From an uncultured Spirochaetales bacterium (GTDB lineage Bacteria; Spirochaetota; Spirochaetia; Sphaerochaetales; Sphaerochaetaceae): a DNA stretch of 64,000 nt. A model generated the notes under the pieces. The model saw nothing but the letters and a program-made list of their open reading frames with translations. It was not told the origin of the DNA and did not search any database. The position numbers and the translations under genes are program-made. The first letter of the stretch is position 1, and each line of letters begins with the position of its first letter. Where the stretch lies: positions 1-64,000 of the forward strand of contig CASEAG010000038.1 in the NCBI GenBank assembly GCA_949285785.1. The letters run 5' to 3'. This document shows positions 35,203 through 37,337 of this stretch, in pieces.

Positions 35203-35210
35203 TCCTCTTT

Positions 35211-35282
35211 TAGTTCCTAGGGGAATCGAACCCCTATTTAGAGACTGAGAATCTCCCGTCCTAACCGTTAGACGAAGGAACC
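35211..35282 (-). tRNA. tRNA-Glu (anticodon CTC)
   Basis: Acceptor stem GGTTCCT pairs with AGGAACT (G1-U72 wobble). The anticodon arm is GGAGA-TTCTCAG-TCTCT with anticodon CTC. The T arm is AGGGG-TTCGATT-CCCCT. Length 72. The CTC isoacceptor fits a genome preferring GAG codons. Confidence 0.94.
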
Positions 35283-35294
35283 ATTGTTTCAGAT

Positions 35295-35365
35295 CTGGGA
35301 TGGAGGGATTCGAACCCCCAAAGGCAGAACCAGAATCTGCAGTGTTACCATTACACTACATCCCA
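35295..35365 (-). tRNA. tRNA-Gln (anticodon CTG)
   Basis: Acceptor stem TGGGATG pairs with CATCCCA, with the U1-A72 pair typical of tRNA-Gln. The anticodon arm is GCAGA-TTCTGGT-TCTGC with anticodon CTG, and the discriminator is G. It is transcribed with tRNA-Glu, 12 bases downstream. Confidence 0.95.
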
Positions 35366-35389
35366 ATCTCTGTTTTCCAGTCCTCAAGT

Positions 35390-35608: not shown

Positions 35609-36142
35609 TCAATTCTGAGGTCCAAATGACGGCAGATAGCTTGACTGACTCATGTCGTACGTCTTCCCTTCGTAAGTCACATCGAACTTCTCTACGGAGA
35701 AAGTCGAATTATCTCCATCATAATGAGAGACATAAACGACATCGACAGTCATGGTTCTGGCGTCACTTGATTCCTTGCTTGTCTTATAAAGGATAGTTCC
35801 TTTCGTTGAAGACGTCATATCGGGCCCTGTTACAGTATCAGTATTATTAGAACTTGGTACTAGACCAGTTCCCTTGAGTAATATATAACCGTTTTTTGCG
35901 CTGTAATCCTTCACCATTTCAGTCATTTTTTCATTCCAATACTCATTATTTGGATTATCTGGACTTGGACTCGGCATGACCTCGAACAATGCACCAAGGA
36001 CATTTCCAATCTCCTGTTCGATATTTGCATCCGGCTTCACAGATGAAGACGTAGAAGACGTCGGACTCGGATTATCATTACCACATGCGACAAAACCGAA
36101 TACAACAAAAAGAACCAACAAAACACTCAGCAATCTTTTCAT
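35609..36142 (-). CDS. Predicted lipoprotein with poly-G tract in its promoter
   Basis: This small protein of 177 residues has a clear signal and lipobox FVAC, then a Ser/Thr/Pro-rich spacer (NPSPTSSTSSSVKPD) typical of surface-displayed spirochaete lipoproteins. The domain behind it is predicted alpha then beta and matches no family I know. GGGGAG precedes ATG 36142. Composition is more AT-rich than the neighbours. The promoter contains eight consecutive G between -35 and -10, so expression may switch by slippage. Confidence 0.75.
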   Translation of the reverse strand: MKRLLSVLLVLFVVFGFVACGNDNPSPTSSTSSSVKPDANIEQEIGNVLGALFEVMPSPSPDNPNNEYWNEKMTEMVKDYSAKNGYILLKGTGLVPSSNNTDTVTGPDMTSSTKGTILYKTSKESSDARTMTVDVVYVSHYDGDNSTFSVEKFDVTYEGKTYDMSQSSYLPSFGPQN

Positions 36143-36187
36143 GACTACTCCCCTTTTTCCTAGGCTGAATTGCCCGATGTCGAGGCA

Positions 36188-36215
36188 AGAGTAGAGTATT
36201 TACCCCCCCCGTCAA
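36188..36215 (-). promoter_or_regulatory. Lipoprotein promoter with homopolymeric spacer
   Basis: TTGACG (36210-36215), a 16-base spacer whose first seven bases are G, then TACTCT (36188-36193). The leader to the ATG is about 38 bases. Any change in the G count alters the -35/-10 distance. Confidence 0.6.
36203..36210 (-). repeat. G8 homopolymer tract
   Basis: Eight consecutive C on the plus strand (G on the coding strand of the lipoprotein gene), overlapping the last base of its -35 box and the spacer. Confidence 0.9.
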
Positions 36216-36317: not shown

Positions 36318-37337
36318 TCAGGGATAGACATGCTTGAAGGCCGCTACCCTGCTGCTGGCGGTGAGTCTGAGGTCATCCCTGAATCCGTCCTGAAGATAGC
36401 GGTATGCAAGACCGGCGACCATGGCGCCGTTGTCGGTGCAAAGCTTGAGAGACGGGAATGTCACCGTGTAGCCACCCTGCTCCAGAGCCTTAAGCTCGCT
36501 TCTGAGAAGACTGTTGGCAGCGACTCCACCACCTGCGGAGACACGCTTGAGACCCGTATCCTTCAGTGCAGCCTTCACCCTTTTCATGAGGATTCCAACT
36601 GCACAGCGCTGGAATGATGCAGCGATGTTCTCGTTCGTCACCGGGGCATCGCCATTGCGGAACTTGTCGAGCTGGTTGATGACACCGGTCTTGAGTCCGC
36701 TGTATGACATGTCGTATGGATGCTCGCCCCTGTCCAGAGTCGGTCCCGGGAACAGAAAGGCCATCGGATCTCCGTTCTTGCTGAGACGGTCGATGACGAC
36801 ACCACCCGGGTAACCGAGATCGTAGAACTTGGCGACCTTGTCGAATGCCTCGCCGATTGCATCGTCGATGGTTGTTCCAAGCACCTGGATCCGATCGTAT
36901 CCATCGACACGGCAGATGACGGTGTGTCCACCCGATACGAGCACGCCGAGATATGGATACTCCAGGGGGTTCTCGATCTGCGAGGCGTACAGATGGGCCC
37001 TGATATGGTCGATTCCGATCACGGGAATGCCAAGGGCATAGGCGAAGGACTTGGCGAAGTTCACACCGACGAGGAGAGAGCCCAGCAGGCCGGGTCTGTT
37101 CGAGACCGCGACGGCATCCAGATCCTGATTCGTCAGTCCGGCCTGGGCGATGGCGGCCTTGACGACCTGGCTCACCCATTCGGTATGCAGACGGCTTGCA
37201 AGTTCAGGCACAACGCCCTGGTAGGGCTTGTGGAGTTCAATCTGAGTCGCGATTACATTGGACAGAATGTCCCTTCCATCTCTGACGACGGCTGCCGAAC
37301 ATTCATCGCAGCTGGTCTCGATTCCAAGAACGATCAT
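36318..37337 (-). CDS. tsaD: tRNA N6-threonylcarbamoyladenosine synthase subunit TsaD
   Basis: TsaD transfers threonylcarbamoyl to A37 of ANN-decoding tRNAs, with TsaB and TsaE. The ASKHA motifs are visible: GIETSCDECSAAVV, GVVPELASRLH, metal-binding DHIRAHLYA (HxxxH), SGGHT and the C-terminal AGGGVAANSLLR and CTDNGAMVAGLAY. Length 339, normal. It starts 7 bases after a small unknown gene. Confidence 0.96.
   Translation of the reverse strand: MIVLGIETSCDECSAAVVRDGRDILSNVIATQIELHKPYQGVVPELASRLHTEWVSQVVKAAIAQAGLTNQDLDAVAVSNRPGLLGSLLVGVNFAKSFAYALGIPVIGIDHIRAHLYASQIENPLEYPYLGVLVSGGHTVICRVDGYDRIQVLGTTIDDAIGEAFDKVAKFYDLGYPGGVVIDRLSKNGDPMAFLFPGPTLDRGEHPYDMSYSGLKTGVINQLDKFRNGDAPVTNENIAASFQRCAVGILMKRVKAALKDTGLKRVSAGGGVAANSLLRSELKALEQGGYTVTFPSLKLCTDNGAMVAGLAYRYLQDGFRDDLRLTASSRVAAFKHVYP

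Follow-up and report, generated by a model that had tools for sequence, protein, structure and literature searches.

A G8 tract in the promoter spacer of a Sphaerochaetaceae lipoprotein gene is a probable slipped-strand contingency locus of a lipoprotein-dedicated set

To our knowledge, the only spirochaete genes known to switch through promoter poly-G tracts encode outer-membrane proteins of Treponema pallidum. In tp0126, which encodes an OmpW homologue, a poly-G tract lies between -35 and -10, and transcription is optimal when the spacing is 17 nt (PMC7864442). At tprL, mixtures of G7-G11 tracts are found in vivo, and reporter output is higher with 8 than with 10 G (PMC7864442). Neisseria meningitidis porA also carries poly-G in its promoter spacer, with expression that tracks 17-nt spacing, and opc has poly-C at -35, so C runs are used as well (PMC7864442).

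The window studied here is the whole 64-kb stretch of DNA analysed, from an uncultured Spirochaetales bacterium of the Sphaerochaetaceae. On its minus strand, positions 36215-36188 read TTGAC-GGGGGGGG-TAAATACTC-TACTCT. The -35 hexamer TTGACG (36210..36215) ends on the first base of a G8 homopolymer (36203..36210; C8 on the plus strand), which is the proposed slippage site. Seven G and TAAATACTC make up a 16-base spacer (36194..36209) before the -10 hexamer TACTCT (36188..36193). This direct reading bears out the initial annotation, which had the G8 tract running from the last -35 base into a 16-base spacer. The promoter is placed 46-73 bases 5' of a minus-strand gene for a 177-aa lipoprotein (35609..36142, ATG at 36142), and a probable ribosome-binding site, GGGGAG (36148..36153), lies 5 bases before the ATG. 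A generic sigma-70 scan of the window did not list the TTGACG/TACTCT promoter, because TACTCT is a poor match to TATAAT.

The protein begins MKRLLSVLLVLFVVFGFVAC|GNDNPSPTSSTSSSVKP..., with a signal peptide and lipobox (FVAC) over residues 1-20 (36083..36142, minus strand), the lipobox Cys at residue 20 and then a Ser/Thr/Pro-rich stretch. The same annotation had described a short lipoprotein with such a stretch. The lipobox and the linker are clear, and the protein may be exposed at the surface. A Pfam search of the 177 residues matched no family, and the protein shares 29% identity with the product of the syntenic gene in the sister species G011. The AlphaFold2 model was of low confidence (mean pLDDT 65), too weak for a fold search.

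The upstream gene, tsaD (36318..37337, minus strand; PF00814, E 2e-88), is context outside the proposed switch. Beyond the lipoprotein lie tRNA-Gln and tRNA-Glu (35210-35366) and then an ABC-F ATPase gene. A comparison of TsaD placed the source bacterium close to named rumen and gut Spirochaetales assemblies, to Ca. Ornithospirochaeta avicola and to Sphaerochaeta, and so in a Sphaerochaetaceae-type lineage; in named relatives no such lipoprotein was found between tsaD and the tRNA pair. The tRNA pair directly follows tsaD in several relatives, and the lipoprotein is therefore an insertion into a conserved neighbourhood.

Like loci of the porA/tp0126 type, the G8 promoter has a slippage-prone homopolymer between -35 and -10. 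The initial annotation had invoked the T. pallidum tpr genes. The closest precedent in spirochaetes is instead tp0126, which shares with our locus a spirochaete host, an envelope protein gene and poly-G in the -35/-10 spacer (PMC7864442). Experiments have shown a spacing-type switch at both tp0126 and porA (PMC7864442). The resemblance to tprE, tprG, tprJ and tprL is that length-variable G8-G10 tracts affect the transcription of surface-protein genes.

The G8 tract is the sole G/C run of at least 7 in the window. At least one G8 run also occurs in 68/100 dinucleotide shuffles of the window, so we rejected G8 alone as a significant signal. Unlike the bare tract, the combination of promoter, tract and lipoprotein is far from chance. 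We read all 19 G/C runs of at least 8 in the source genome (G000; 2.05 Mb, 40 contigs) on both strands. Thirteen of them sit 20-75 bases before a lipoprotein start; arithmetic from about 11 lipoproteins per 464 kb gives an expectation of about 0.05 of the 19 within 100 bases. Twelve of the 13 lie inside a TTGNNN-(15-17)-TANNNT promoter, and the other, on contig C7, has a weaker TTTACT-16-TAGAAT arrangement, judged by eye. On the sense strand 10 are G and 3 are C. Background statistics for this genome were drawn from stretches totalling 464-619 kb. In an unbiased 464-kb sample, 3/11 lipoproteins had a G tract of at least 6 upstream, vs 1/481 other genes (Fisher P = 3e-5). Lipoprotein promoters with shorter tracts are also present, on C12 (G6), C39 (G7) and at C28:237887 (C7, spacer 13), bringing the lipoprotein genes wired with spacer tracts to roughly 16. 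The genome's long G/C runs are thus concentrated in lipoprotein promoters, as in a set dedicated to lipoproteins.

Poly-C (C7-C9) replaces poly-G in the lipoprotein promoter spacers at G000:C7:14541, C25:11667, C35:3066 and C28:237887 (L042, L048, L055, L288). C10 and C9 cases are found in two other genomes, G022 and G065.

We then searched 139 family genomes for the pattern TTGACN{2,26}G6+TANNNT, with the reversed pattern and a poly-C mirror as controls. The poly-G pattern gave 323 sites, the reversed one 19 and the mirror 8 (sums by hand); 60/139 genomes carried the poly-G pattern. The genus of the source genome has 28 sites vs 0 reversed, and genus g16 has 271 vs 3; g16 contains the Ca. Ornithospirochaeta avicola genome, as shown by a site that G170 and G065 have in common. 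Among the 8 mirror sites, the 3 with C7-C10 precede lipoproteins and the C6 ones do not. Across the class, 111/395 genomes were positive. The highest count, 20 sites, came from family f24; the genera of this family appear to resemble Treponemataceae. Sites fetched from outside the Sphaerochaetaceae are often, not always, before lipoproteins. A TTGACG6 pattern with two mismatches was too loose, swamped by chance matches, and was dropped; it nonetheless revealed the G011 ortholog on C2.

Where the tract adjoins -35, as at the studied locus, 9/9 TTGACGn sites precede lipoproteins. TTGAC-Gn is conserved at the G011 syntenic locus and in 8 further sense poly-G sites of this type, again all before lipoproteins. 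Where the tract adjoins -10, 82/102 Gn-TANNNT sites precede lipoproteins; of the remaining 20, 15 lack a readable gene, in most cases owing to a contig end. An alignment of 58 lipoproteins behind such promoters shows only the signal peptide and the Cys in common, with Cys20 invariant. Few of them have known domains, and these are scattered and adhesin-like: Pectate_lyase_5 in 6, Big_3 in 3 and a BspA LRR in 1.

Two side cases come from other families of the class. At G406:C12:126330 and 127999 (L323, L333), two peptides of 73 aa are encoded side by side behind identical G10 promoters, with a bacteriocin-like leader of the double-glycine kind (MNGFTEVSSLELEQIEGG). The single-contig genomes G444 and G293, of family f24, have very long tracts (G12-G17) with a short remaining spacer.

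Tract length differs in 20/30 near-identical pairs, defined as sites with at least 90% identity over 40-120 bp downstream; the flanks of about 145 bp have 0-2 gaps, and the pairs are not independent of each other. Genome G079 holds three copies with identical flanks and tracts of G9, G10 and G10. In G076, too, the flanks of the copies are identical and the tract is G8 or G9, and copies in G074 differ as G12 vs G9. The studied locus itself is syntenic in G011, with 80-85% DNA identity on both sides. Its promoter is G8 with spacer 16 in the source genome vs G6 with spacer 14 in G011, and the CTCTACTCTTGC block at -10 is identical. Two further syntenic pairs of these species also differ (G6 vs G8, G7 vs G8). 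The tract therefore varies faster than its flanks, both between copies and between species. Lengths of at least 8 were found at 91/102 Gn-TANNNT sites, though the pattern permitted 6, and cluster at 8-10, unlike random runs, for which a steep fall-off from the minimum of 6 is expected. These sequence comparisons support well the structure, recurrence and instability of the tracts, and in part the reading in the initial annotation that expression of the lipoprotein would switch with tract length. The comparison covered one genome per species; slippage is the probable cause and may also occur inside the source species.

In 619 kb of the source genome, the spacing of tract-free TTGAC/TANNNT pairs peaks at 17-18 in intergenic DNA and is flat in coding DNA. 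From a spacer of 16, changes of one or two bases thus cross the optimum. Tracts adjoin -35 in some promoters and -10 in others and may be G or C; spacing, and not a fixed operator, therefore seems to matter. In the Treponemataceae-like family f24, the lengths of prefix and tract compensate each other (r = -0.69), and 0/5000 permutations were as tight. No such compensation was found in the source genus (g1) or in g16. We also looked for mismatch-repair loss and saw none: MutS is encoded in the source genome and mutS1 is kept throughout the genus, so loss of repair was rejected as a driver. Tracts of 8 or more are able to slip despite mismatch repair.

We conclude, with a probability of about 85%, that G8 is the mutable part of a porA/tp0126-type contingency locus subject to slipped-strand errors, one that belongs to a lipoprotein-dedicated set. 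During replication, slipped-strand mispairing would add or remove G, and each slip would reset the -35/-10 spacing, from 16 with G8 to 17-18 with G9-G10 or 14-15 with G6-G7. A gain of one or two G would reach the 17-18 optimum, and a loss of one or two would depart from it. The shift is expected to make RNA polymerase bind more or less strongly, so that lipoprotein output would step up or down, reversibly and cell by cell. That transcription follows spacing at the G8 promoter is likely by analogy with the characterized promoters. With about 16 such loci, a population could hold many lipoprotein combinations simultaneously.

The same tie to one gene class would be seen if the G run were the binding site of a regulator over a lipoprotein regulon and its length changes were incidental, and at the tpr promoters of T. 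pallidum poly-G length does act jointly with a CRP homologue (PMC7864442). Such a site would be hard to reconcile with a tract that is not fixed in position, lying at -35 or at -10, with the use of poly-C in at least 4 of the source genome's lipoprotein promoters, and with otherwise identical copies that differ in tract length, and we consider this explanation improbable. Those differing copies, found inside one genome, also speak against a static setting of spacing or strength for each gene that shifts only on evolutionary time. Most tract-promoter spacers in the source genome are 15-16, as though kept near a single value, which is what a static setting would predict. However, a non-repetitive spacer would be more stable, and nearly all tracts are 8-13, a length range known to slip; a static setting is, in our judgement, similarly improbable.

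The poorest candidate is a homopolymer sequencing or assembly artefact, or chance, to which we give hardly any credence. Most of the assemblies are metagenomic, a consensus tract could be miscounted by one base, and repeats close to contig ends could be wrongly joined. The tracts nevertheless recur in dozens of independent assemblies, the single-contig G293 and G444 included. They lie within the promoter spacer in every case and 5' of lipoproteins in most, and the reversed and mirror controls are near zero. As an account of the tract's existence, artefact is already refuted.

The slipped-strand switch proposed here is of a kind already known. What is new, as far as we have checked, is its extent in gut-type Sphaerochaetaceae, its focus on lipoproteins and a promoter/signal-peptide cassette. 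Our literature search, incomplete in coverage, turned up no work on phase variation in Sphaerochaeta. The product of tp0126 is an outer-membrane barrel, whereas the set described here is large, is dedicated to lipoproteins, occurs in gut lineages of the Sphaerochaetaceae type and uses C as well as G tracts. For tprE, tprG and tprJ, the reported rule is permissive expression at 8 G or fewer, not spacing, and the proteins are a porin-like repeat family. porA and opc are single genes for unrelated proteins in unrelated organisms, whereas here one promoter type extends across the lipoprotein repertoire.

The cassette is clearest in G076, where the signal peptides of six lipoproteins are identical and their promoters and leaders near-identical, and the bodies are only 22-34% identical. 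The source genome has a milder form. Cassettes before strongly diverged bodies are found at L249-L256 (G076) and at L262, L263, L265 and L266 (G079), and contigs often stop within this repeated cassette on account of the repetition. Its uniformity may come from gene conversion, or the bodies may simply diverge fast. In Mycoplasma hyorhinis, the vlp lipoprotein family likewise combines a similar promoter and signal region, a promoter poly-A tract and varied bodies; vlp uses poly-A at one clustered locus, whereas the tracts here are poly-G or poly-C and the genes are dispersed over the chromosome.

We give even odds to a broader proposal, that host-associated Spirochaetia have a class-wide lipoprotein phasome. 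The near-identical promoter/poly-G/signal-peptide cassette would be kept uniform, possibly through gene conversion, among dispersed paralogues whose bodies diverge to 22-36% identity, and independent one-base slips would produce a combinatorial, changeable coat in commensals and pathogens. If true, this would be a general route to lipoprotein diversity in gut-type Sphaerochaetaceae and Treponemataceae-like bacteria, and poly-G switching would predate pathogenicity. TTGAC-N-G8+-TANNNT before a lipobox would then be a signature for variable envelope proteins of uncultured spirochaetes.

The 6 remaining long runs of the source genome include one upstream of a GntR regulator and another 8 bases from a start codon. 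G8 or G9 tracts stand just 5' of GntR-type regulators at G000:C35:3982 (L056) and G007:C24:10646 (L164), where they could render a whole regulon switchable. At G000:C16:87979 (L045), a G8 tract precedes a 395-aa non-lipoprotein gene by only 8 bases, and the length of the tract could influence translation initiation. A G9/C9 run at G000:C28:296877 (L050) falls within a predicted coding region and is a candidate contingency site of the frameshift type.
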